In this document: in pieces, positions 15,835 to 28,027 of the stretch | Layout of the letters: each line of letters begins with the position of its first letter | How positions within the stretch are numbered: the first letter of the stretch is position 1 | Assembly: GCF_018760365.1 (NCBI RefSeq) | Contig: NZ_JAHIAB010000011.1 | Coordinates: 1-64,000 of the forward strand | Direction of reading: 5' to 3' | Length of the DNA stretch: 64,000 nt | Source of the DNA: Pseudooceanicola endophyticus | GTDB lineage: Bacteria > Pseudomonadota > Alphaproteobacteria > Rhodobacterales > Rhodobacteraceae | Program-made: the position numbers and the translations under genes | The notes under the pieces: model-generated | What the model was told of the DNA's origin: nothing | Database searches by the model: none | What the model saw: only the letters and a program-made list of their open reading frames with translations

Positions 15835-16190
15835 GGGTCTTCTGGCTGATTTCGGGGCTTCTCAGCCTCGGTTTCGGCCTGCTGGGCGTCGTGCTACCGC
15901 TTCTGCCCACCGTGCCCTTCATGCTGCTGGCCGCCTTCTGCTTTTCCCGCTCTTCCGAGCGGCTGCATGCATGGCTGCTGTCGCATCCCAGTTTCGGCCC
16001 GGCGATCCAGGACTGGCGCGACCACCGCGCGATCTCCCTGAAGGCAAAACGCCTCGCCACCGTAATGGTGGGAGGCGTTTTTCTTATCTCGATCCTGATG
16101 GGCCTCAGGCCGCATCTTCTGGCGATCCAGGGGCTGACCCTCTGCGCCGTGATGATCTTCCTCTGGACCCGTCCTAGCGGGCCGCGCTGA
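15831..16190 (+). CDS. YbaN/DUF454 family inner-membrane protein
   Basis: 119-residue membrane protein with two or three predicted helices (about 5-35, 70-90 and 95-113). It has the family pattern LLPLLPTVPF-LLAAFCFSRSSERLHAWL, then HP-FGP-I-DWRDHRAIS-KAKR. Function is unknown. It overlaps hemW by ATGA. A 15-bp inverted repeat with A- and T-tracts lies inside the coding sequence at 16046-16085 (see the separate entry). The last 17 bases overlap the convergent parB gene. Confidence 0.85.
   Translation: MRVFWLISGLLSLGFGLLGVVLPLLPTVPFMLLAAFCFSRSSERLHAWLLSHPSFGPAIQDWRDHRAISLKAKRLATVMVGGVFLISILMGLRPHLLAIQGLTLCAVMIFLWTRPSGPR
16046..16085. terminator. two-way terminator embedded in ybaN coding sequence
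   Basis: AAAACGCCTC pairs perfectly with GAGGCGTTTT, continuing (after one bulged G) into CCACC-GTAAT-GGTGG. The plus strand ends TTTTTCTT and the minus strand ends TTTT. It sits about 90 bp past the parB stop, so it could terminate the leftward parAB transcript while also affecting the rightward hemW-ybaN transcript. Confidence 0.7.
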
Positions 16191-17088
16191 GGACCTGGCA
16201 CAGGTCGTCCAGCTGTTCCAGCGTGTCGTAGGAGATCGTCACCTGGCCATATTCCTTGCCCGGAACGTGGTCGATGATCACCGTCATGCCTAGCGCCGCC
16301 GACAGATCCTGCTCCAGCGCGCGGGTATCCGCGTCCTTCTCGCCCTCGTCCGGACGGATGCCGAAACTGATCTTCTTCTGCGGTTTCGGGGCTACCGGGG
16401 CCTCGGGCTTTTTCGCCAGCTGCTCGGTCGCGCGGACGGACAACCCGCCCTGAATGACCTTGTGCGCCAGCGCAACGGGGTTCTCTGAAGTGATCAGCGC
16501 CCGCGCGTGACCGGCCGAAAGCTGGCCGTCGCGCAGCATTTCCTGCACTTCGGAGGGCAGCTGCAGCAGGCGCATCAGGTTGGCAATGTGGCTGCGGCTC
16601 TTGCCCAGGGCCTGCGCCAGTTTTTCCTGCGTGTGGCCGAACTTGTCCATCAGCTGACGGAAGCCCATGGCCTCTTCCACCGGGTTCAGATCGGCGCGCT
16701 GGATGTTCTCGATGATCGCGACCTCGAGGACCTCGACATCATCGAAATCGCGCACGATGACCGGCACTTCATGCAGTTTCGCCCGCTGCGCCGAGCGCCA
16801 GCGGCGTTCCCCGGCAACGATCTCGTAACTGCCGTCGCCGCCCGGCTTCGGGCGCACGATCAGCGGCTGGATGATGCCCTTTTCGCGGATCGAATTGGTC
16901 AGATCCTCCAGCTGGGCCTCGGTAAAGCTGCGGCGCGGCTGGTCCGGATTGGGAACGACGGATTCAATCGGCACCATCATGTCGGGGCGACGATTGGTGT
17001 TACCCCCCAGATTTTGTTCTTCCGGGGACACATCTGCCATCAGGGCGGACAAGCCGCGCCCGAGTCCGCGCGTTTTTCTCTTTTCCAT
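16174..17088 (-). CDS. parB: chromosome partitioning protein ParB
   Basis: CTP-dependent DNA-sliding clamp that loads at parS and organises the origin. Its parts are an N-terminal RGLGRGLSALM ParA-stimulating segment, the ParB/Srx-like domain with GERRWRSAQRA and IIENIQRADLNPVEEA (about residues 90-145), a helix-turn-helix (about 150-175, KLAQALGKSRSHIANLMRLLQLP) and a C-terminal dimerisation segment. At 304 residues it is normal. It lies 16 bp after parA, in the operon with rsmG and mnmG. Three perfect parS sites lie in this window. Confidence 0.97.
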   Translation of the reverse strand: MEKRKTRGLGRGLSALMADVSPEEQNLGGNTNRRPDMMVPIESVVPNPDQPRRSFTEAQLEDLTNSIREKGIIQPLIVRPKPGGDGSYEIVAGERRWRSAQRAKLHEVPVIVRDFDDVEVLEVAIIENIQRADLNPVEEAMGFRQLMDKFGHTQEKLAQALGKSRSHIANLMRLLQLPSEVQEMLRDGQLSAGHARALITSENPVALAHKVIQGGLSVRATEQLAKKPEAPVAPKPQKKISFGIRPDEGEKDADTRALEQDLSAALGMTVIIDHVPGKEYGQVTISYDTLEQLDDLCQVLSAAR

Positions 17089-17104
17089 GCTCTGCTCCTC
17101 TGCC

Positions 17105-17914
17105 TCAGGCGGCGACAGGCTCGTATTTCTTCAGAATTTCCTGTGCCAGCGCGCGATAGGCTTCGGCCCCGCGCGACGTCGTATCATATTCGAGCACGGG
17201 CATCGCGAAAGAGGGAGCTTCGCTGAGCCGCACATTGCGCGGAATCAGGGTCCGGAAGACCATGTCACCAAGATTGTCCCGCGCGTCCTGCTCGACCTGC
17301 TGGGAGAGGTTGTTGCGGGAATCGTACATCGTCAGAACGATTCCCTCGATCCGCAGATCCGGATTGGCGCTGCTGCGCACCTCGCGGATCGACAGCATCA
17401 GCTGCGACAGGCCCTCAAGCGCATAGAATTCGCTTTGCAGCGGCACCAGAACCGAATGCGCGGCGACCATGGCGTTCACGGTCAGCAAATTCAGCGACGG
17501 CGGGCAGTCGATAACAATGAAATCGTAACCATATCCTGCCATTTCCGGCTGACGCAGGGCGCGTTGCAGTAGGAACAGCCGGTTTTCGTTCTGATAAAGC
17601 TCGATATCCGCCGAGGAGAGGTCCACGGTGGCGGGAATGATGTCCAGCCCCGTCACCCCGGTCGCCCGGATCACCTTTTCCAGCGGGCTGTCTTCGGCAA
17701 GAAGATCGTAAACCGTAAATTCACGATCATCTGCTTCCACCCCCATCCCCGTCGAGGCATTGCCCTGCGGGTCCAGGTCGATCAGCAGAACGCGGCAGCC
17801 CTCTTCCACCAGCGCGGCGCTCATGTTGATCGCGGTCGTCGTCTTCCCGACCCCTCCCTTCTGGTTCGCAACAGCGATGATGCGGGGGCCCGATTGGTTA
17901 AGCAGACGCGACAC
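17105..17914 (-). CDS. parA: chromosome partitioning ATPase ParA (Soj)
   Basis: Deviant Walker ATPase that moves ParB-parS complexes. The P-loop ANQKGGVGKTTTAINM lies at residues 16-31, the DLDPQGNAS Walker A' segment follows, and the VIDCPPSLNLLT Walker B is near residue 123. At 269 residues it is the chromosomal (Soj-like) size with no N-terminal DNA-binding extension. It overlaps rsmG by 17 bp and is followed at once by parB. Confidence 0.97.
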   Translation of the reverse strand: MSRLLNQSGPRIIAVANQKGGVGKTTTAINMSAALVEEGCRVLLIDLDPQGNASTGMGVEADDREFTVYDLLAEDSPLEKVIRATGVTGLDIIPATVDLSSADIELYQNENRLFLLQRALRQPEMAGYGYDFIVIDCPPSLNLLTVNAMVAAHSVLVPLQSEFYALEGLSQLMLSIREVRSSANPDLRIEGIVLTMYDSRNNLSQQVEQDARDNLGDMVFRTLIPRNVRLSEAPSFAMPVLEYDTTSRGAEAYRALAQEILKKYEPVAA

Positions 17915-18518
17915 GGCGAATTCCTCCGATTTTCAGGATGACAGCCTCGGATTCAGTCTTACTCGGCACGGCCTCCCAGCGGAAGCGCCATTGTGCCTCG
18001 GCTTCCGAAATCTCTTCTTTCCAGCGCTGTCCCTTCGGGAAAAGCGCCACTCCTTCGGGCGCCAGGTGACGTTCCGCAAAGCCCAGAAGATCCGAGAGAG
18101 AGGCCAGCGCCCGCGCGGACAGCACATCGGCGCCCTGAACGGGTGCCTGTTCGATGCGTTGCGACAGGACCTGAACCTTCACACCGGTCTCCCGCGCCAC
18201 GGACCGCAGGAAGGCGCATTTCCGCTGGTCGGACTCGATCAGGGTAAAGGTCGCATCGGGTTGCAGCTCTGCCGCCCGAATGGCGATCACGAGGCCGGGA
18301 AACCCTCCGCCACTGCCGATATCCAGCCAATGGGCAAAATCCGACGCCAGGGAATGGATCTGGGCGGAGTCGACGAAATGCCGCGTCCAGAGATCCGGAA
18401 TGGTGTGCTTGGACACCAGATTGATCTTCCGGTTCCATTTCTCGAGAAGCTCCGCGTAGAGGCGCAGCTTCTCAGATGTTTCACGTGAAACACTCTCGGT
18501 GGTCGGATCGAGGCTCAC
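17898..18518 (-). CDS. rsmG: 16S rRNA (guanine527-N7)-methyltransferase RsmG
   Basis: Rossmann-fold SAM methyltransferase modifying G527 of 16S rRNA. It shows [21 protein letters not shown], the SAM-binding [15 protein letters not shown] (about residues 67-81) and [11 protein letters not shown]. Length is 206 residues. Codons near the N-terminus that encode VSRET are formed by a perfect parS site (18477-18492), so the protein sequence here is shaped by the partition site. It overlaps mnmG by 4 bp and parA by 17 bp. Confidence 0.95.
18477..18492. promoter_or_regulatory. parS: parS site 1 (in rsmG)
   Basis: Perfect TGTTTCACGTGAAACA palindrome, the bacterial consensus ParB loading site. It lies inside the rsmG coding sequence, about 0.6 kb upstream of parA and 5.4 kb from the putative origin. 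Confidence 0.95.
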
Positions 18519-20401
18519 GCGGACTTTTCCCGGTTCTCGCGGTTCAGACGCGCCAGGATCAGGGCCAGCGCCGCCGGGGTCATGCCCTCGATCCGGCCTG
18601 CCTGAGCCAGGTTTGCGGGCCGCACGCGCTGAAGCTTCATCTTCAGCTCGTTCGAGAGGCTTTCCAGACCGGAATAGTCAAAACTGTTCGGGATCACCCG
18701 GGCCTCATCCTTGCGCAGCGCGGCCGCATCCTGCTCCTGCCGGGACAGGTAGGTCGCGTAGAGCGCATCCTTCTTCAGCTGCGCCTGGGTCTCGGCATCC
18801 AGCTCGGCCAGTTCTGGTGCAATATCCACAAGATGCTGTATCTCAACATCCGCAAACGCCAAAACCTGGTAGAGCGAGCGCTGCTTGCCGTCCTCCCCGA
18901 CCTTGATTCCGTTGCTGTTCAGAACCTTCGGCGTAACCTTGGTGTCTTCCAGCAACGACTTGCCCCGGGTCAGACGCTCCATCTTGTCCCCAAAGGCGGC
19001 CTTGCGAACCTCTCCCACCAGGCCGGCTTCGATCCCCTTGCCCGTCAGACGCTGGTCAGCGTTGTCGGCGCGCAGGGACAGCCGGTATTCGGCACGCGAG
19101 GTAAACATCCGGTAGGGTTCAGAGACGCCGCGCGTGATCAGATCGTCGACCATCACGCCGATGTAGCTGTCGGTCCGGCTGAAGGTCACGGGATCGGCGC
19201 CAAGCGCCTCCTTGGCCGCGTTCAGGCCAGCGACAAGGCCCTGGGCCGCCGCTTCCTCATAGCCCGTGGTGCCGTTGATCTGGCCGGCCAGGAACAGGCC
19301 CGGCACATCGCGCAGCCCCAGGCGGCTGTCAAGGGCGCGGGGATCGACGTAATCGTATTCGATGGCATAGCCAGGCTGGAGGATCTTCACCTCTTCCAGG
19401 CCACGGATGGAGCGCACATAGGCCTCCTGCACGTCCTGCGGCAGCGAGGTCGAGATGCCATTCGGGTAAACCGTATCGTCGTTCAGCCCCTCGGGCTCCA
19501 GGAAGACCTGGTGCGAGTCCTTGTCGGCAAACCGCACGACCTTGTCCTCGATCGAGGGACAGTAACGCGGCCCCACCCCCTCGATATAGCCACCGTACAT
19601 GGCAGAGCGTTCGAGGTTGTTGCGGATGATCTCATGGGTGGCCGCATTGGTATGGGTGATCCCGCAGGACACCTGACGGATCTCCAAGCCCTTGGTTTGG
19701 AAGGAGAAAAAGACCGGATCCTCGTCGCCGGGCTGGCTGTCGAGGATGTTCCAGTCAATCGTCTTGCCATCCAGGCGCGGCGGCGTGCCGGTCTTCAGCC
19801 GGCCCAGAGGCAGGCCGAAGCCATCCATCCGCTGGCCCAGCAGGTTCGCGGCATTGTCGCCCATCCGGCCGCCCGAATAGCTGTGATCGCCGATGTGGAT
19901 CAGCCCACGCAGGAAGGTGCCGGTGGTCAGAACCACGGCCCCGGCCGAGATTTCCGAACCATCCGCCAGGACGATTCCGGCCACGCGGTTCCCGTCCATG
20001 CGGAAATCCGTCACCTCGCCCTCGATCACCTCGAGGCCCGGGAAGGAGGTCATTTCCTTCTGCATCGTCGCCCGGTAGACCGCACGGTCCGCCTGGGCGC
20101 GCGGCCCCTGCACGGCGGGGCCCTTGCGGCGGTTCAGAAGGCGGAACTGGATGCCCGCAGCATCGGCCACGCGGCTCATCACGCCGTCCAGGGCGTCGAT
20201 CTCGCGCACCAGATGACCCTTGCCCAGGCCACCGATGGCCGGGTTGCAGGACATCACGCCGATCCCGTCGAATTTCAACGTCACAAGCGCCGTCCGGGCG
20301 CCCGCACGAGCCGCCGCATGGGCCGCATCGCAGCCCGCATGGCCGCCACCGACCACCACAACATCGAAGTTCGAATGTTTCACGTGAAACAGTCCCATCA
20401 T
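18515..20401 (-). CDS. mnmG: tRNA uridine-5-carboxymethylaminomethyl modification enzyme MnmG (GidA)
   Basis: FAD-dependent partner of MnmE in making cmnm5U34 in tRNA. The N-terminal dinucleotide fold [14 protein letters not shown] (about residues 14-27) is followed by [22 protein letters not shown] and later [22 protein letters not shown]. Length 628 is typical. The start ATG overlaps the mnmE stop (ATGA); a second ATG follows directly. The first codons, encoding FHVKH, are formed by a parS site (20376-20391). Confidence 0.97.
20376..20391. promoter_or_regulatory. parS: parS site 2 (in mnmG)
   Basis: Perfect TGTTTCACGTGAAACA, codons 4-9 of mnmG. About 3.5 kb from the putative origin. Confidence 0.95.
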
Positions 20402-21684
20402 TTGCCGATGCAGAAACTCGAGAAGATCTCTCCGAGAAGAGACTCGACGTCGATATTTCCTACCAGAGAATCCAGGGCGCGAATAGCCGAGCGGAGCTCT
20501 TCGGCGATCACGTCTTCCGTCGCCATCTCCTGTCCGAGCATCTCCTGCGCGGTGGCGAGATAGCCCATGGCGCGCAGGATGGCCAGACGGTGACGTTCGC
20601 GCGTTGCCGTTGCGACAAGGGCGCTGCGGTCCGCGAAAATCCGGGTGATCCGCGCCACCAGCGCGTCGATCCCCTGCCCCGTGCGGCCGCTGATCCCCTC
20701 GGGATCACCGGTTTCGTCCGCCTTGCCGTGCAGCGCGATATCGCCGGGCTGCAAGGCAAAGCGCGGTTCCTCGCCGGGCTCCAGAAGGTAGATCCGCAGG
20801 TCCGCCGCCTCGGCCCTCGCGCGGGCGCGTTCGATGCCGATCGCCTCGACCTCGTCCTCGGTCTCACGCAGGCCGGCGGTGTCCAGAAGCGTCACCGGAA
20901 GGCCGCGCAGGTCCATGCGCACCTCGATCACGTCGCGGGTGGTGCCCGCCACGGAAGAGGTGATCGCGGCGTCGCGCCCCGCAAGGTAGTTCAGCAATGT
21001 CGACTTGCCGGCGTTCGGAGCGCCCAGAATGGCGACCTCGAAGCCCTGGCGCACACGCTCGGCCACCTCTGCCCCGTCCGCCTGGACCTTCAGGCTGGCC
21101 GAAACGCGGGCCAGCAGGGCCTCGACCTCAGGTCGGACGTCCACGGGGACGTCTTCGTCGACAAAGTCGATCACGGCCTCCAGGAGGGCCGCTGCGCGCA
21201 ACAGGTCGCGCCGCCAGCCCTGCACCACCTCGCCCAGCTTGCCCGAGAAGACACGCTGCGCCTGGCGCCGCTGGGCCTCGGTCTCGGAATCGATCAGGTC
21301 CGCCAGCCCCTCGACCTGGGCCAGGTCCATCTTGCCGTTCTCCAGCGCCCGGCGGGTGAATTCCCCGGCCTCGGCCATGCGCAGGCCCGGCACTTCGCCC
21401 AGCTCGCGCAGGGTGGCGTTGATGATCGCCGGGCTGCCGTGCAGGTGCAGCTCCACCACGTCCTCTCCGGTGAAGGAGGCGGGTGCGCGGAAGTAGACCA
21501 CGACGGCCTGGTCCAGCAGCGCCCCCTGCCCGTCCCGAAGGCTGCGCAGCAGCGTTTCACGGGGAACAGGATCGGTGACCCCGAAACGGGCAAGGGCCGG
21601 GAGTGAACCCGGCCCCGAGATCCTGATCACGGAGACGCCGGCCCGGCCAGGGGCCGATGCCAGCGCGAAGATCGTATCCATCAC
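20398..21684 (-). CDS. mnmE: tRNA modification GTPase MnmE (TrmE)
   Basis: GTPase acting with MnmG on wobble uridines. It has an N-terminal tetrahydrofolate-binding domain (about 1-118, starting [24 protein letters not shown]) and a helical domain interrupted by the G domain with G1 [12 protein letters not shown] (about residues 221-232), SVAGTTRD and DTAGLRET. The protein ends FCIGK with the functionally essential Cys of the C-x-GK tail. It lies 4 bp after rho and overlaps mnmG by 4 bp. Confidence 0.96.
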
Positions 21685-21688
21685 GTCC

Positions 21689-22960
21689 TCAGGTGTTCAT
21701 CGAGTCGAAGAAATCGGAGTTCGTCTTTGTCTGCTTCAGCTTGGAAATCAGGAACTCGATGGCATCGGTGGTGCCCATCGGGTTCAGGATGCGGCGCAGC
21801 ACGAAGGTTTTCTGCAGATCGCCCTTGTCGACCAGCAGGTCCTCTTTCCGGGTGCCGGACTTGAGGATGTCCATCGCCGGGAAGACGCGCTTGTCGGCAA
21901 CCTTGCGGTCCAGCACGATTTCCGAGTTGCCGGTGCCCTTGAATTCTTCGAAGATGACTTCGTCCATGCGCGAGCCGGTGTCGATCAGAGCGGTCGCGAT
22001 GATGGTCAGAGAGCCGCCCTCTTCGATGTTGCGCGCCGCGCCGAAGAAGCGCTTCGGCCGTTGCAGCGCGTTGGCGTCGACACCGCCGGTCAGCACCTTG
22101 CCCGAGGACGGGACCACGGTGTTGAAGGCGCGGCCCAGGCGCGTGATCGAGTCCAGCAGGATGACGACATCGCGCTTGTGCTCGACCAGGCGCTTGGCCT
22201 TTTCGATCACCATCTCCGACACGGCGACGTGGCGGGTTGCCGGTTCGTCGAAGGTCGAGGAGATCACCTCGCCCTTCACCGAACGCTGCATGTCGGTAAC
22301 TTCTTCCGGGCGTTCGTCGATCAGCAGGACGATCAGATAGCACTCAGGGTGGTTCTTTTCGATGCTGCTGGCGATGTTCTGCAGCAGAACGGTCTTACCG
22401 GTGCGCGGCGGCGCCACGATCAGCGAACGCTGGCCCTTCCCGATCGGCGCGACCAGGTCGATGATGCGCGCGGAGCGGTCCCTGATGGTGGGATCCTCGA
22501 TCTCCATCTTCAGGCGCTCGTCCGGGTAGAGCGGCGTCAGGTTGTCGAAGGCGATCTTGTGGCGTGCCTTCTCGGGATCCTCGAAGTTGATCCGCTGGAC
22601 CGAGGTCAGGGCAAAGTAGCGCTCATTGTCGTCGGGCGCCTTCATCAGGCCCTCGACCGTGTCGCCGGTGCGCAGGGACCACTGGCGGATCATGTCGGGC
22701 GAAACGTAGATGTCATCGGGACCCGGCAGGTAATTTGCTTCCGGAGAGCGCAGGAAGCCGAAGCCGTCCTGCAGCACTTCCAGAACGCCGTCGCCGCCGA
22801 TCTGCCAATCGTCATCCGCCAGTTCCCGCAGGATCTGGAACATCATCTCGCCCTTGCGCATGGTCGAGGCGTTCTCGATCTCCAGCTCCTCGGCCATGGC
22901 CAGGAGGTCCTTCGGGCTTTTGGCCTTCAGGTCGGAAAGGTTCAGGCGGTTTTCACTCAT
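21689..22960 (-). CDS. rho: transcription termination factor Rho
   Basis: Hexameric RNA-dependent ATPase that terminates transcription. It has an N-terminal helical and cold-shock-like RNA-binding region (about 1-125, [23 protein letters not shown]) and a RecA-like ATPase with Walker [15 protein letters not shown] (about 180-193), Walker [15 protein letters not shown] and the Q-loop/R-loop segment [27 protein letters not shown]. At 423 residues it is the usual size. The leader from the predicted promoter at 23072-23100 is about 105 nt with a strong hairpin, which may serve autoregulation. Confidence 0.97.
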
Positions 22961-23045
22961 GGAAAAGGTTCCCCGGGGATCGGCGCCGCAACACGGGGGC
23001 GCTGTCGATCAGCATTCGTCTGTCAATGTCATGTGCGGAAGACAT

Positions 23046-23061
23046 CCACCCGGACGGGTGG
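23046..23061 (-). promoter_or_regulatory. hairpin in the rho leader
   Basis: CCACCCG-GA-CGGGTGG forms a 6-7-bp stem within the transcribed leader of rho, a few bases after the predicted start. rho genes are often autoregulated through their leaders in other bacteria; whether this hairpin takes part is inference. Confidence 0.4.
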
Positions 23062-23071
23062 CTTGAGCGCT

Positions 23072-23100
23072 GACATAAGCGCTCTGTCCGTCCGAGTCAA
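23072..23100 (-). promoter_or_regulatory. predicted rho promoter
   Basis: On the minus strand TTGACT (-35), a 17-bp spacer and TATGTC (-10). The -10 region lies inside the inverted repeat GAGCGC-TGACATAA-GCGCTC (23064-23083), which could be an operator. It lies between hemJ and rho, so the rho-parB genes can be transcribed independently of hemJ. Confidence 0.6.
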
Positions 23101-23167
23101 CGATTCACCCCGGTTTCCCCATTCGGGGATGCCAGCCGCCCTGCCCGGGCCGGGCCGGCGGCGGGCC

Positions 23168-23617
23168 TCAGAATTTCACCACGACCGCCAGGACGATGAT
23201 CACCATCAGCACGGTCGGGACCTCGTTCATCAGCCTGTACTGGCGTCCGGACAGGGTATTCGTTTTTCTCATAAAGTCCTTTCGGCGCCCGCCAAGCCAA
23301 TGATGAAACCAAGTCATAACCACCACGGAGACCGCTTTCACCCAGGGCCAGGGCTGATCCCAGGAGACAATTCCCGGAGTAAAAACAAGGGCTAAGCCAA
23401 AGATCCACGTGCCGATCATCGCCGGATTCATGATGCCCCGGAACAGCCGCCGTTCCATCACCTGGAACATCTGATCGGTCTTTTCGTCGTCGCTTCCCTG
23501 TTCCACGTGGTACACGAAGAGCCTGGGAAGATAGAAAATTCCCGCCATCCAGGAAATCACGCAGATGATGTGCAGGAACTTTGTCCACGGGTAGATCGCG
23601 GCAAGGAAGTCGGCCAT
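23168..23617 (-). CDS. hemJ: protoporphyrinogen IX oxidase HemJ
   Basis: Four-helix membrane protein of the HemJ (UPF0093) family that oxidises protoporphyrinogen IX in heme and chlorophyll synthesis. The conserved His (H16 in TKFLHIICVISWMAGIFYLPRLF) and a Lys in WVKAVSVV (about residue 98) match residues shown to be essential in the family. Length 149 is usual. It sits beside the putative origin, and the rho-hemJ linkage is common in Rhodobacterales. Its third-codon G+C is visibly lower than most genes in the window. Confidence 0.9.
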   Translation of the reverse strand: MADFLAAIYPWTKFLHIICVISWMAGIFYLPRLFVYHVEQGSDDEKTDQMFQVMERRLFRGIMNPAMIGTWIFGLALVFTPGIVSWDQPWPWVKAVSVVVMTWFHHWLGGRRKDFMRKTNTLSGRQYRLMNEVPTVLMVIIVLAVVVKF

Positions 23618-24052
23618 GGGGAACTCCGGTCAGTGAGGGGCCTCACATACTCTTTCATATAAAAGAAAGAAAAGATTGTTGTGTGATGTTGGCCTCTTCC
23701 AGCCTGTGGATACTTGGTTTGTCCTCCTGCTTTTCCACAGGGGGATAACTGTGGGATGAATCGGAACGAATCGGTGAACTACTTTTACCCGATCCTGAGA
23801 AGTTTTTTCAGCTCAATTACTTATCCTGTGAAAAACCCGTGGATAACTGAGCGCTGATTCTGGGGAGCGAGTCCGGGAGAATCGGTGAGGAGTGTGAAAT
23901 CCACATATCCTTTCCCACCGTGGGGGAATCGGGGCGACTCAGGCGCGACTCGGCAAGGTTTTCCACCGGTCGATGCAGGACTTGCGCTTTCGGGCGTTTT
24001 TTCCCAGAACGGTCCGCGCGCTTACGTCCGAATTTTGAACGGGTTTATCCCC
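23618..24052. other. oriC: putative chromosomal replication origin (oriC)
   Basis: The 435-bp gene-free gap between hemJ and maf is AT-rich in a GC-rich chromosome, notably about 23645-23690 and 23773-23835. DnaA-box-like 9-mers compared with TTATCCACA: 23705-23713 (reverse, 8/9), 23731-23739 (8/9), 23740-23748 (reverse, 7/9), 23821-23829 (6/9), 23838-23846 (reverse, 8/9), 23897-23905 (7/9) and 24045-24053 (8/9). Nine GANTC sites lie within 23758-23951. Genes on both sides point away from it, three parS sites lie within 6 kb, and parAB is nearby. All agree with an alphaproteobacterial origin. Confidence 0.85.
23758..23951. promoter_or_regulatory. cluster of nine GANTC (CcrM-type) methylation sites in the origin
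   Basis: GANTC occurs at 23758, 23768, 23856, 23869, 23879, 23926, 23936 and 23947 with flanks often GAATCGG; the ninth is counted below. Starts: 23758 GAATC, 23768 GAATC, 23856 GATTC, 23869 GAGTC, 23879 GAATC, 23926 GAATC, 23936 GACTC, 23947 GACTC. That is eight exact sites by this list (the span gives at most nine if overlapping flanks are counted), against fewer than one expected by chance in 194 bp. Hemimethylation by a CcrM-like enzyme could mark newly fired origins. Confidence 0.8.
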
Positions 24053-24652
24053 ATGGTCGCTCCGATCCTCCTCGCTTCAGGCTCCGCCATTCGTGCGGAA
24101 CTCTTGAAAAATGCGGGTATTTCTTTCGAAGCCCGCAAACCGCGGGTCGATGAGGATGCGGTGCGCCAGGCGCTTGAGGCCGAGGGCGAAAGCCCCCGCA
24201 ACATCGCGGACGCCCTGGCGCAGGCGAAGGCCGAAAAGGTCGGCCGGAAGGCACCGGAGGCCTTCGTGATCGGCTGCGACCAGGTGCTGGACCTGGAGGG
24301 GCGGATCTTTTCAAAGCCGGAAAGCCTGGAAGAGGCGCGCGATCAGCTGCGGGCGCTGGCTGGCAAGCGCCACGTCTTGCACACGGCTGCGGTCATTCAC
24401 AACGAGGATCGCGTGGTCTGGCGCAAGGTCAGCTCGGTGAAAATGACGATGAGACCATTTTCCGAAGCCTTTCTAGAGGGTTACCTCGAAAGAAACTGGC
24501 CGGAGGTCGGTACGTCCTGCGGGGCGTATCAGGTCGAATCCGAAGGCGTTCGGCTGTTCTCTCGGATCGAGGGAGACTATTTTGCCATCCTCGGCCTGCC
24601 TTTGCTGGAAATTCTGGACTACCTTGCCCTCAGAGGAGCCATCGACTCATGA
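24053..24652 (+). CDS. maf: Maf family nucleotide pyrophosphatase
   Basis: Septum-site Maf/YhdE/YceF-type nucleoside triphosphate pyrophosphatase that removes modified or non-canonical nucleotides. It begins MVAPILLASGSAIRAELL (the family usually has LASxSPRR), then KPRVDEDAVRQ and the catalytic-region VIGCDQVLDLEG (about residues 66-77). It is 199 residues from the ATG at 24053. The frame is open upstream into the origin but without homology-like sequence. No clear ribosome site precedes the ATG, and a DnaA-box-like TTATCCCCA abuts it. It overlaps aroE by 4 bp. Confidence 0.9.
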   Translation: MVAPILLASGSAIRAELLKNAGISFEARKPRVDEDAVRQALEAEGESPRNIADALAQAKAEKVGRKAPEAFVIGCDQVLDLEGRIFSKPESLEEARDQLRALAGKRHVLHTAAVIHNEDRVVWRKVSSVKMTMRPFSEAFLEGYLERNWPEVGTSCGAYQVESEGVRLFSRIEGDYFAILGLPLLEILDYLALRGAIDS

Positions 24653-25482
24653 CGCTGGACGCTGCCCCCCTCGCCGGTGTGATCGGGCACCCGATTGCAC
24701 ATTCCCGTTCGCCGCAGGTGCATGGCCACTGGCTGCGGACCATGGGGCTGCGCGGGCACTACATCCCCATGGATATCCACCATGATGACCTGGCCGATGC
24801 GTTGAAAATGCTGCCGAAAATGGGTTTCGTTGGCATCAACGTGACGATTCCCCACAAAGAAGCGGTGCTGAAACTGGCCGATATCGTGACCGACCGTGCC
24901 TCTTTGATCGGGGCGGCGAATACGCTCATCTTTCGTCCAGATGGCAAGATTCATGCTGATAATACAGATGGTTACGGGTTTCTTGAGAATCTGAAGCAAT
25001 ATGCGCCGAACTGGGATCCGGCGTCCGGTCCGGCGATGGTGCTGGGCGCGGGGGGGGCTTCGCGCGCGATTGTCTTCGCACTGCTGGAAGTCGGCGTTCC
25101 GGAGATCTTCATCACCAATCGGACGCGCATCCGCGCAGAGCAACTTCAGAGCGATTTTGGTAAAAAACTCAAGGTGATAGACTGGCACCTGGCGTCCTCT
25201 TCGATGGCCGAGGCTGCCTTGGTTGTGAACACCACGTCGCTTGGCATGGTCAATCATCCGGAACTCAATCTCAACCTGGATGTGCTGCATCCGGGCCAGG
25301 TTGTGACCGATATCGTCTACAATCCTCTGGAAACCACCCTTCTGCGCCGGGCCCGCGAAGCGGGTTGCGTGACGGTGGATGGTCTGGGTATGCTTCTGCA
25401 TCAGGCTGTGCCCGGGTTCGAACGCTGGTTCGGCGCCCGTCCCGAAGTCACGGAGGCGCTGCGGATCGAGGCGCTTAAATGA
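24649..25482 (+). CDS. aroE: shikimate dehydrogenase (NADP+)
   Basis: Reduces 3-dehydroshikimate to shikimate in aromatic amino acid synthesis. It has the N-terminal substrate motif GHPIAHSRSPQVH, catalytic Lys K70 in NVTIPHKE and Asp D107 in NTDGYGF, the nucleotide loop LGAGGASRAI (about 130-139), and the C-terminal GLGMLLHQAVPGFERWFG. At 277 residues it is typical. It overlaps maf (ATGA) and coaE (ATGA). Third-position A/T is noticeably more frequent here than in most of the window. Confidence 0.95.
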   Translation: MTLDAAPLAGVIGHPIAHSRSPQVHGHWLRTMGLRGHYIPMDIHHDDLADALKMLPKMGFVGINVTIPHKEAVLKLADIVTDRASLIGAANTLIFRPDGKIHADNTDGYGFLENLKQYAPNWDPASGPAMVLGAGGASRAIVFALLEVGVPEIFITNRTRIRAEQLQSDFGKKLKVIDWHLASSSMAEAALVVNTTSLGMVNHPELNLNLDVLHPGQVVTDIVYNPLETTLLRRAREAGCVTVDGLGMLLHQAVPGFERWFGARPEVTEALRIEALK

Positions 25483-26072
25483 GCTTTCTTCTCGGCCTGA
25501 CCGGGTCCGTCGGCATGGGAAAGTCGACGACTCTGAAGATGTTCGCCGAGGCGGGATGCGATGTCTGGGATGCAGATTCCGCTGTGCATCGGCTTTATGG
25601 GCCCGGTGGGGCGGCGGTGGCGCCCATGAAGGCTGCATTTCCGGAGGCGGTACGGGATGGTATTGTTTCACGTGAAACACTGAAGCGGATGATTGCGGAC
25701 GATCCATCCATTTTGCGAAAGATCGAGCAGATCGTTCATCCTTTGGTGGCAGAGGATCGTCGGATTTTCATCGAAAGAGCGAAGTCGGATGTTGCCGTCT
25801 GCGATATCCCACTGCTCTACGAAAACGGGTACGAGGGTATTTTTGATGCCGTTGCGGTGGTTTCGACCGACCCGGAGACTCAGAAAAGCCGTGTCATGGC
25901 GCGCGGAACCATGACCGAGGACCAGTTTGAGTTGATTTTGAAAAAACAGCTCCCGGATGCCGGGAAGCGCGCCCGGGCCAGCTATGTGATCGAGACACGT
26001 ACGCTACCGTATGTGAGGGAACAGGTGGCACAAATCCTCGAAGAGATCCGGAAAGGTCAGATCCATGCGTGA
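25479..26072 (+). CDS. coaE: dephospho-CoA kinase
   Basis: Last step of coenzyme A synthesis. P-loop [12 protein letters not shown] at residues 6-17, [14 protein letters not shown], the LVAEDR and DIPLLYE motifs and the lid-region [15 protein letters not shown] are present. Length 197. A perfect parS site (25664-25679) lies inside the gene and encodes VSRET, the same peptide as in rsmG. It overlaps aroE by 4 bp and dnaQ by 8 bp. Confidence 0.95.
25664..25679. promoter_or_regulatory. parS: parS site 3 (in coaE)
   Basis: Perfect TGTTTCACGTGAAACA inside coaE, about 1.8 kb from the putative origin and on the opposite side from the other two sites. Confidence 0.95.
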
Positions 26073-26754
26073 GATTGTTCTCGATACCGAAACAACCGGC
26101 TTTGATCCCTTCCAGGGCGACCGGCTGGTCGAGATCGGCTGTGTCGAGCTGTTGAATCATGTTCCGACCGGCGAGACCTATCATGTCTACATCAATCCGG
26201 AACGCGATGTGCCGGAAGATGCCTTCAAGGTGCACGGGCTCAGCACGGAATTCCTCTCGGACAAGCCGGTGTTCCGTGATCTGGCGAAAAGTTTCGTCGA
26301 TTTCATCGGAGATTCGAAGCTGATCATCCACAATGCCAGCTTCGACATGAAATTCCTCAACGCGGAACTTGGCTGGCTGAACATGGCGCAGATCCCGAAC
26401 GCCCAGGCGGTCGATACTCTGGCCATCGCGCGAAAGAAATTCCCGGGCTCACCGGCTTCCCTGGATGCGCTCTGCCGGCGTTTCGGCATCGACAACTCTG
26501 CCCGGACGCTGCACGGCGCCCTGCTCGACTCCGAGATCCTGGCCGAGGTCTATCTGGAACTGATCGGTGGTCGCCAGCCGGATCTGGTGCTGGCAACGGC
26601 GACCCGCAAGACCGATACGGCGGTTGAGGACGACTGGCGTCCGCGTCCCCGTCCGGTGCCCCTGGAGGCGCGCCTGACAGAAGAGGAAAAGGCCGCCCAC
26701 CGGGCTTTCGTCGAGAAGATGGGAGATGGGGCCCTTTGGGCCAAGATGCAGTAA
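26065..26754 (+). CDS. dnaQ: DNA polymerase III epsilon subunit (proofreading exonuclease)
   Basis: DEDDh 3'-5' exonuclease of the replicase. Exo I is [10 protein letters not shown] (D7, E9), Exo [14 protein letters not shown], and Exo [17 protein letters not shown] with the catalytic His/Asp. The C-terminal tail (about 180-229) is charged and probably binds the polymerase alpha subunit. Length 229 is normal. It ends the maf-aroE-coaE-dnaQ rightward operon and is followed by an intrinsic terminator shared with convergent secB. Confidence 0.96.
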
Positions 26755-26761
26755 GGCAACA

Positions 26762-26790
26762 AAAAACCCGGCGCGAAGCCGGATTTTTCG
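26762..26790. terminator. two-way terminator between dnaQ and secB
   Basis: CCGGC-GCGAA-GCCGG (26768-26782) is flanked by an A-run on the left and ATTTTTCG on the right, so it can stop transcription from dnaQ rightward and from secB leftward. Confidence 0.75.
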
Positions 26791-26805
26791 TGTCCTCAGA
26801 ACCAC

Positions 26806-27309
26806 TTAGTTGGTGGTTTCGGGCGCCTGCTGCTGCATCGCGGCGGCGCGGCGCTGAAGCTCGGCCCGGTACAGCGACACGAAGTCGATCGTATCGAGGT
26901 TCAGCGGCGGGAAGCCCCCGTCGCGCGTGACGTCCGAGACGATGCGGCGGGCGAAGGGGAACAGCATCCGCGGGCATTCGATCAGCAGGAAGGGATGCAG
27001 CTGCTCGTCCGGCACGCCCTCGACATGGAAGACGCCGACATATTCCAGCTCCATCAGGAACATCGGGTCGCCGGTTTCCTTGGCATTGCTGGCGATGGTG
27101 AGCTTCATCATCACGTCGAACTGGTGCTCTGCCTCGCGCTTCTTCGCGTCCAGAGCCACCTGCACCTTCACATCGGGCTGCACCTGGCCGGCGGCCGGCT
27201 TGCGTGCCAGGATGTTCTCGAACGACATGTCGCGGATATACTGCGTCAGAACGTTCATCTTGACCTGCGGCGCCTGTTGCGGCGCCGCGCCATTCGGTTG
27301 ATCAGCCAT
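26806..27309 (-). CDS. secB: protein-export chaperone SecB
   Basis: Tetrameric cytosolic chaperone that keeps preproteins unfolded for SecA. It has the family pattern LTQYIRDMSFENILA, a beta-rich core with FDVMMKLTIASNAKETG, YVGVFHVEGVPDEQLHPFLLIECPRMLFPFARRIVSDVTRDGGFPPL in two segments, and a Q/A-rich tail. From the ATG at 27309 it is 167 residues; the open frame continues upstream without matching sequence. It is convergent with dnaQ and next to fxsA, a usual alphaproteobacterial order. Confidence 0.96.
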   Translation of the reverse strand: MADQPNGAAPQQAPQVKMNVLTQYIRDMSFENILARKPAAGQVQPDVKVQVALDAKKREAEHQFDVMMKLTIASNAKETGDPMFLMELEYVGVFHVEGVPDEQLHPFLLIECPRMLFPFARRIVSDVTRDGGFPPLNLDTIDFVSLYRAELQRRAAAMQQQAPETTN

Positions 27310-27438
27310 TTCCGGCTTCCTCCCCTTCGGAGTTTCTGCGTCGGGACATTTGGTAGCAGCTTGCACCGGCTGCCTCAACGCCGCGTTAAGACCGAAGGGG
27401 CCAGAAACAGGGGGACTGTTGCCGCGATGGGCAGCGGC

Positions 27439-27924
27439 TCAGTGTCGCGTCCAGCCCGACGGCTGGTGCGTCGGTCGCTTGGAGGGGTCTACCTCGGTGA
27501 ATTCGCCGTCGATGATATCCGGCTGGCCCGGTTGCGCCTGTGCGCCCTGGGTGGCACCGCCCATGGTGAAGCTCTGGACCTTCACGCGTTTCTTCAGGAA
27601 GCGGAAGGCGGCGTGGCGGAAGCCCGGGATCAGCAGGGCAAAGCCCAGGGCATCGGTGAAGAAGCCGGGCGTCACCAGCAGCACGCCGGCAATCAGGATC
27701 ATCGCGGCCTCGGCCAGCGGCGCAGAGGGATCGGACAGGTCGTTAAAGCTTTTCTGGATCTTCCCCAGCACCTCGCGGCCCTGCTGCTTGACCATCCAGG
27801 TCCCCAGGATCGCGCTGCCGAAGACGATGGCCAGGGTCCAGCCAAGGCCGATCAACCCGCCCACCTTGATGAAAAGCGCGATCTCAATCATCGGGATCGC
27901 AATGAAGGCCAGCAACAACCACAT
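27439..27924 (-). CDS. fxsA: FxsA family membrane protein
   Basis: Small inner-membrane protein of the FxsA family (in E. coli its overproduction relieves F-plasmid exclusion of phage T7; the normal role is unknown). Hydrophobic helices lie near residues 1-22 (MWLLLAFIAIPMIEIALFI), 27-45 and 72-92, with IPGF-TDALGFALLIP. The cytoplasmic C-terminus is basic. The ATG at 27924 has AAGGAG at good spacing; the frame is open 15 codons further upstream. It is divergent from the Tim44-like gene. Confidence 0.88.
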   Translation of the reverse strand: MWLLLAFIAIPMIEIALFIKVGGLIGLGWTLAIVFGSAILGTWMVKQQGREVLGKIQKSFNDLSDPSAPLAEAAMILIAGVLLVTPGFFTDALGFALLIPGFRHAAFRFLKKRVKVQSFTMGGATQGAQAQPGQPDIIDGEFTEVDPSKRPTHQPSGWTRH

Positions 27925-28027
27925 GGTGTAATCTCCTTTCGTTCGCACAGTGGACGAAGCCCGGTGCAATCCCTACATAGGAACGGACCCTAAGAGATAC
28001 CATGCCCCGGAGGCCCGAGAGGTTCCC

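Follow-up and report, generated by a model that had tools for sequence, protein, structure and literature searches.

The window, which is the whole 64,000-nucleotide stretch of DNA that was analysed, includes a 435-bp gap between maf and a gene that we take to be hemJ. As judged by its gene order and sequence features, this gap is a DnaA-dependent chromosomal origin region of the Rhodobacteraceae. The number of GANTC words in the gap exceeds chance, and the dense array formed by these CcrM methylase sites is specific to the clade of the window rather than family-wide. Alignments demonstrate that the clade keeps its number of sites despite the turnover of many of them. This density, shared by the clade and often accompanied by a spacing of about one helical turn, suggests a read-out of methylation at the origin. 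Our preferred reading, which we put forward with less than even confidence, is that selection has maintained a CcrM array that makes initiation methylation-sensitive, perhaps via a protein that grips phased pairs of sites. The findings bear on the question of a direct action of CcrM methylation at the origins of Alphaproteobacteria.

Origin locus and GANTC content

The gap (23618..24052) is flanked on one side by the presumed hemJ gene (23168..23617, minus strand; Pfam PF03653, UPF0093) and on the other by maf (24053..24652, plus strand; Pfam PF02545). The first-pass annotation had described this segment as a replication origin, and the gene order, the DnaA-box-like sites and the GC skew all agree with that description. 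Pfam matches establish the locus order parBA-rsmG-mnmGE-rho-hemJ/maf-aroE-coaE, in which parB, parA, rsmG, mnmG, mnmE and rho lie on one side of the gap and aroE and coaE on the other, with dnaQ- and secB-like genes (recognized by eye) beyond them. The partition genes parB and parA are near the origin, at 16174..17914 on the minus strand. Cumulative GC skew, computed within the window only, is lowest at about 20-23 kb. The published oriC criteria for Rhodobacteraceae, as given in one account, are DnaA boxes, a skew minimum and nearby parAB (PMC6699656). The equivalent gap measures 324-482 bp in 78 named relatives, and its DnaA-box blocks can be aligned in all 79 gaps.

Eight DnaA-box-like sites occur within 500 bp. 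None is perfect, four carry one mismatch to TTATCCACA and four carry two, compared with shuffle expectations of 0.05 and 0.87, respectively, and the observed numbers were reached in 0 of 500 shuffles. The sites with one mismatch are GTATCCACA (23705..23713, minus strand), which is part of a conserved CTGTGGAT block, and three that lie in aligned blocks: TTTTCCACA (23731..23739, plus strand), TTATCCACG (23838..23846, minus strand) and TTATCCCCA (24045..24053, plus strand), the last at the start of maf. Two mismatches are present in TTATCCCCC (23740..23748) and TTTTTCACA (23827..23835), both on the minus strand, and in AAATCCACA (23897..23905) and TTTTCCACC (23959..23967), both on the plus strand. 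The A/T-rich stretch that adjoins the first box (23640..23694), where alignments reveal an A-rich block and, after it, repeats of the GATGATG or TTGTTGT type, is likely to serve as the unwinding region. Across the 79-gap alignment the DnaA-box blocks and the A-rich stretch are kept; the places of GANTC are not kept family-wide.

An exact word count of the window locates eight GANTC within 194 bp, starting at 23758, 23768, 23856, 23869, 23879, 23926, 23936 and 23947. Both the count and each start had been claimed in the first-pass annotation and are confirmed, as is the sharing of flanks, with GAATCGG present four times and GAATCGGTGA twice. The sites are arranged as a pair 10 bp apart (23758..23772), a triplet with distances of 13 and 10 bp (23856..23883) and a second triplet with distances of 10 and 11 bp (23926..23951), such that five of the seven neighbour distances are 10-13 bp. 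Dinucleotide-preserving shuffles of the gap itself predict 2.54 GANTC in 436 bp. At least eight were reached in 0.16% of 20,000 shuffles (P=0.0016), and none of the 20,000 packed eight into 204 bp.

The word is otherwise scarce. The window holds 76 GANTC in total compared with 308 expected from shuffles, so the word is avoided overall, and outside the cluster no 200-bp stretch of the window has more than three. A sample of the same genome (639,140 bases in 33 stretches, about 12% of the genome) contains 449 GANTC, or 0.70 per kb, at which rate 194 bp would hold 0.14; its observed/expected ratio of 0.17 represents a strong deficit. The concern that equal densities might occur elsewhere in the genome proves largely unfounded, although the 639-kb sample does contain one near-equal cluster; its top stretches apart from the array have 7, 5, 4 and 4 GANTC per 204 bp.

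The seven-site cluster is located between two convergent genes, named by eye as zapE and folC (L150:7347-7696). Among 20 genomes of the genus that were examined (relatives L158-L179), 19 have the same element, which is absent from L174, and two more genomes could not be judged. On its minus strand, TTGACC or TTGACT is followed by about 18 bp, usually with two GANTC inside, and in nearly all genomes by a TANNNT box after this spacer. A G/C-rich hairpin lies about 100-125 nt downstream, with several T's after it in many genomes (distances by eye). The boxes resemble those of a sigma-70 promoter, and the hairpin would act as a terminator. No Rfam family matches the cluster. A strict form of the promoter pattern with one mismatch allowed is present in 10 of 198 family genomes, although the copy in the window's own genome differs and is not matched, and a reversed control yields none among the matches listed. 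The element looks like a candidate small RNA with CcrM sites incorporated into its promoter, and this fixed-place promoter cluster looks unlike the drifting array at the origin. Elsewhere in the genome, five GANTC fall within about 100 bp (L155:6615-6713) at the 3' end of a gene that resembles, by eye, a PLP enzyme of Cys/Met metabolism, and a SAM_alpha riboswitch is present at L155:7873-7950 on the minus strand.

Density and turnover of sites among relatives

Gaps from relatives were collected in three sets. The first comprised 80 named loci, from which L076 (no maf match) and L010 (131-bp gap) were removed to leave 78 plus the window, and the second comprised 40, from which L120 (no maf match) and L121 (1208-bp gap) were removed to leave 38. 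The held-out set sampled close to one genome per genus, none of them in the first sets, although it may include kin of first-set genomes; 25 of its 109 loci were removed (17 already present in the first sets, 7 in which the two genes did not both occur and 1 with a 172-bp gap), leaving 84. When all sets were combined as 197 gaps, exact duplicates were removed between sets only.

The first two sets, pooled as 117 gaps that contain duplicates and in which some assemblies are represented twice, hold 237 GANTC. This is near the 203 expected from composition, compared with a ratio of 0.17 in the genome sample. Such numbers would suit an explanation in which GANTC is shunned in genes and free in non-coding DNA, and in which small duplications and drift build clusters that have no origin role. 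The dense cluster away from the origin is consistent with this, as is a report that GANTC is under-represented in genomes and over-represented between genes, the latter being general in CcrM-bearing Alphaproteobacteria (PMC3973325). Nevertheless, we regard relaxed avoidance as an unlikely account of the array, because of how the sites are distributed, retained and spaced.

The number of GANTC per origin gap is very uneven. Its median is 1 in the first 79 gaps, and among the 197 gaps 38 have at least four whereas 115 have none or one, which rules out family-wide conservation of a dense array. For the 84 held-out gaps the mean is 1.76 and the variance 5.08 (variance/mean 2.9), and 27 gaps are empty compared with 14.4 expected. 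By contrast, seven control palindromes in the held-out gaps have variance/mean ratios of 0.76-1.30, and this lack of overdispersion argues against relaxed avoidance. The densest origins sit in other genera, with 14 GANTC in 414 bp (L316) and 11 in 394 bp (L239). In 27 genomes from other families, the 600 bp upstream of maf, which may not be an origin there, contains 0-4 GANTC; these genomes are 27 of the 30 loci listed from 168 class genomes with a maf match.

The window belongs to a clade of nine members (SH-aLRT 100 in a quick tree), each with 4-10 GANTC. Among 13 other gaps of the genus tree that fall outside the clade, 10 have none or one and three have 4-6. Conservation in close relatives, which had been proposed as a check on the array, is therefore found within this clade and not in most other relatives. 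A 28-row tree, for which six outgroup rows (three of them dense) were chosen by hand, needs four changes between the dense and sparse states, and thus density arose or vanished more than once. It is conceivable, though in our judgement fairly unlikely, that several Rhodobacteraceae lineages independently gained, at their main origin, a one-turn-phased GANTC array that is read by an alphaproteobacterial functional counterpart of SeqA, with CcrM timing or limiting DnaA initiation, contrary to the conclusion reached for Caulobacter.

CtrA boxes, DnaA boxes, GATC and IHF-like sites were considered as possible substitutes for GANTC in sparse origins, and none differs clearly between the two groups. 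The share of gaps with a CtrA-like site is 47% among the dense and 45% among the sparse. A blind palindrome scan returned differences weaker than that of GANTC, in which AGNCT, CTNAG and TCNGA are commoner in dense gaps and A/T words and TGNCA are commoner in sparse gaps. For AGNCT, the 197 gaps average 1.71 per gap when GANTC-dense and 0.63 when sparse.

DnaA-box-like sites with at most one mismatch are equally numerous in dense and sparse gaps (means of 2.76 and 2.72), suggesting that the array was added to an otherwise unchanged origin. This equality, and the closeness of GANTC sites to DnaA-box-like sites, would be compatible with a model that has no reader protein, in which methylation itself alters how the DNA bends or melts, or how readily DnaA reaches weak boxes nearby, and the sites add up. 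We find this model quite improbable. About 65-255 bp separate the array from the stretch presumed to unwind, and the spacing data described below also weigh against it.

The six other clade gaps that were aligned to the window are 50-58% identical to it. The eight window sites are kept in place 4, 0, 1, 3, 3 and 3 times in these relatives, each of which has 4-10 sites of its own. Certain groupings recur. A counterpart of the 23758/23768 pair, 11 bp apart, is found at the matching place in L088, L092 and L099, and by position in L093 and L102. The 23856..23883 triplet is present in L101 with one N base changed, and triplets resembling 23926..23951 occur at shifted places in L101 and L104. Of the 296 GANTC aligned in all comparisons among the seven clade gaps, 92 are still GANTC in the other gap, versus 60 of 709 for other palindromes, the best kept of which is CCNGG (28 of 114). 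Only the free N base changed in 22 of the 92 kept GANTC, versus 6 of the 60 other palindromes.

Mismatches at aligned sites fall on G, A, T and C 145, 118, 139 and 153 times, respectively, versus 144 times on N. Since the fixed bases are not spared relative to N, many sites appear to come and go. The flanks of 344 origin sites yield no strong longer binding motif around GANTC, and a mild excess of G four bases out is present in the genome background too. The conservation pattern and the lack of a strong flanking motif point to the methylase word itself. That the clade retains 4-10 sites in gaps of such limited identity is difficult to explain by relaxed avoidance.

Spacing of sites and candidate readers

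The distances between neighbouring sites are biased toward 9-13 bp. This range was picked after viewing the window and the first set, which makes the first set suggestive and the held-out set the test. To limit shared descent, the 27 dense gaps of the first set were reduced to 21 by removing identical spacing patterns and then to 18 with a hand-made list. At 9-13 bp there are 26 of 91 neighbours versus 6.9 expected in the 18 gaps, and 31 of 108 versus 8.4 expected in the 21. The held-out set has 15 of 91 versus 6.1 expected (P=0.0005), or 10 versus 4.2 when L316 is removed (P=0.006). Counted per origin, the held-out result is 8 of 36 versus 4.5 expected, which is weak (P=0.04). Neighbours at 4-8 bp are scarce in the same set (3 versus 6.8 expected). 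A second preferred spacing of 17 bp, noticed in the first set, is absent in the held-out set and was probably due to shared descent.

Fifteen control palindromes in the held-out gaps, which are unmatched for number per gap, have 53 of 1022 neighbours at 9-13 bp, with the highest values for CANTG (4 of 30) and CGNCG (9 of 77). The bias is not seen in the sample of about 12% of the window's genome (2 of 416 neighbours), and the origin flanks of relatives have a slight excess, with 39 neighbours at 9-13 bp versus 23 at 4-8 and 26 at 14-18. The same N base is shared in 25 of 56 close pairs from all gaps, so small duplications may account for part of the pattern, as relaxed avoidance would predict. 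However, a spacing bias that is unseen in the genome sample and weaker or absent in the 15 other palindromes is not readily explained in that way. Likewise, a purely physical effect of methylation predicts neither the preference for 9-13 bp nor the scarcity at 4-8 bp. The bias would fit some phased reader of the sites, and names none.

The genome encodes CcrM (L082:706-1806), whose product carries a RAMA domain and matches Modification methylase CcrMI, PDB 6pbd (551.6 bits, E 8e-165), and the possibility that a CcrM gene is missing can be set aside. All 29 genomes tested for CcrM have it, whether their origins are dense or sparse, which rules out its presence as the cause of the difference between them. 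Given that most of the Rhodobacteraceae origins examined have none or one site despite this, a dense array is not needed for origin control generally. We know of no reader of GANTC hemimethylation. SeqA-type recognition finds no support in the form that the first-pass annotation had suggested: PF03925 has no match in the window's genome, with a positive E. coli control, and deletion of ccrM in Caulobacter is reported to leave the control of initiation normal (PMC3973325).

GcrA is also encoded in this genome (166.8 bits), and an array of GcrA sites is another reading to which we assign a low probability. It would entail methylation-dependent sites for GcrA and RNA polymerase that drive or pause origin transcription (of the maf operon, hemJ or an origin RNA), with any effect on replication arising through transcription. 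Methylation of GANTC is described as enhancing GcrA binding; the target that GcrA prefers in Caulobacter is said to contain three sites, and two juxtaposed sites are described for the mipZ promoter (PMC3667746). The reported consensus for GcrA, YGAKTCK (PMC7987155), or its complement fits 5 of the 8 window sites and 18 of 51 clade sites, compared with about a quarter of GANTC sites expected with random flanks. Yet the fit over all dense origins is 49 of 201 sites, which is no excess over random flanks, and 80 of 442 in the genome sample. No sigma-70-like promoter is evident in 23550-24100, by a weak test that uses the E. coli-type consensus only. Moreover, the number and placing of sites vary among close relatives, unlike those of the fixed promoter-type cluster between zapE and folC.

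The preferred reading, a selected CcrM array at the origin, can be outlined as follows. CcrM sites in the clade appear to fill the stretches between DnaA boxes, and selection would act on their number and their spacing of roughly one helical turn, not on exact place. Firing of the origin would turn all eight sites hemimethylated together, and this state would probably last until the late cell-cycle synthesis of CcrM, in the way described for sites close to the Caulobacter origin (PMC3973325). A putative methylation-sensing protein may then grip neighbouring GANTC on one helix face, and dependence of such a reader on adjacent sites would account for the phasing. By altering the assembly of DnaA on the interspersed boxes, such a reader could delay or license the next initiation. 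The scheme would be like that of Dam and SeqA at E. coli oriC, with different parts.

Counting against this reading are the post hoc choice of the 9-13 bp range, the weak per-origin test and the one near-equal cluster outside the origin, together with the sparse origins of most relatives examined, the missing SeqA match, the mismatch counts at aligned sites and the shared N bases of close pairs. The chief published result against it is the normal control of initiation in Caulobacter that lacks CcrM (PMC3973325). Lineages with 8-14 origin GANTC, whose sisters have the same CcrM and no such sites, lend themselves to paired tests. A function for the array would imply a so far unrecognised reader of the GANTC methylation state, whereas an array without function would be an example of a methylase word that has piled up.

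Comparison with known systems

The gene neighbourhood of Caulobacter crescentus Cori differs from that of the window, and the window is unlike Cori in that no TTAA-N7-TTAA CtrA box is present in 22900-24300. Both are alphaproteobacterial DnaA origins with several GANTC and a cell-cycle CcrM, according to one account of the Caulobacter system (PMC3973325). The same account associates CcrM overexpression with extra chromosomes and estimates that, in a mixed population, about 80% of cells carry origin-near sites in the hemimethylated state (PMC3973325).

GANTC has been reported to become more frequent near ori in four alphaproteobacterial orders, Rhodobacterales included, with sites counted in hundredths of the chromosome (PMC9836097). 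This rise is found in the window too, where avoidance of the word is eased over about 12 kb around the origin (16000-28000), with observed/expected ratios of 0.49, 0.66 and 0.47 in successive 4-kb bins, the middle of which includes the array. In relatives, the top bin lies 4.5-6 kb away on the hemJ side (0.64). For the array within the gap, its clade pattern and its spacing, we found no account in the open-access passages that we consulted.

Agrobacterium tumefaciens ori2 (repABC) is likewise a GANTC-bearing origin, for which it has been proposed that hemimethylation after firing blocks re-firing (PMC11514494). It is, however, a RepC-dependent second origin, whereas that of the window is a DnaA-type main origin.

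In E. coli oriC, as in the window, methylase sites are interleaved with DnaA boxes, and oriC is stated to have 11 GATC (PMC5145175). The Dam/SeqA system employs a different methylase and word, and its SeqA has no match in the window's genome. Efficient binding by SeqA in vitro is reported to need phased pairs two to three turns apart (PMC5145175). A similar pairwise geometry might apply to the GANTC that lie among DnaA boxes, although these prefer 9-13 bp, with a weak per-origin test, compared with the two to three turns preferred by SeqA. The GATC of oriC are described as not phased by whole turns (PMC5145175), whereas GANTC of the type seen in the window tend to be separated by about one turn.
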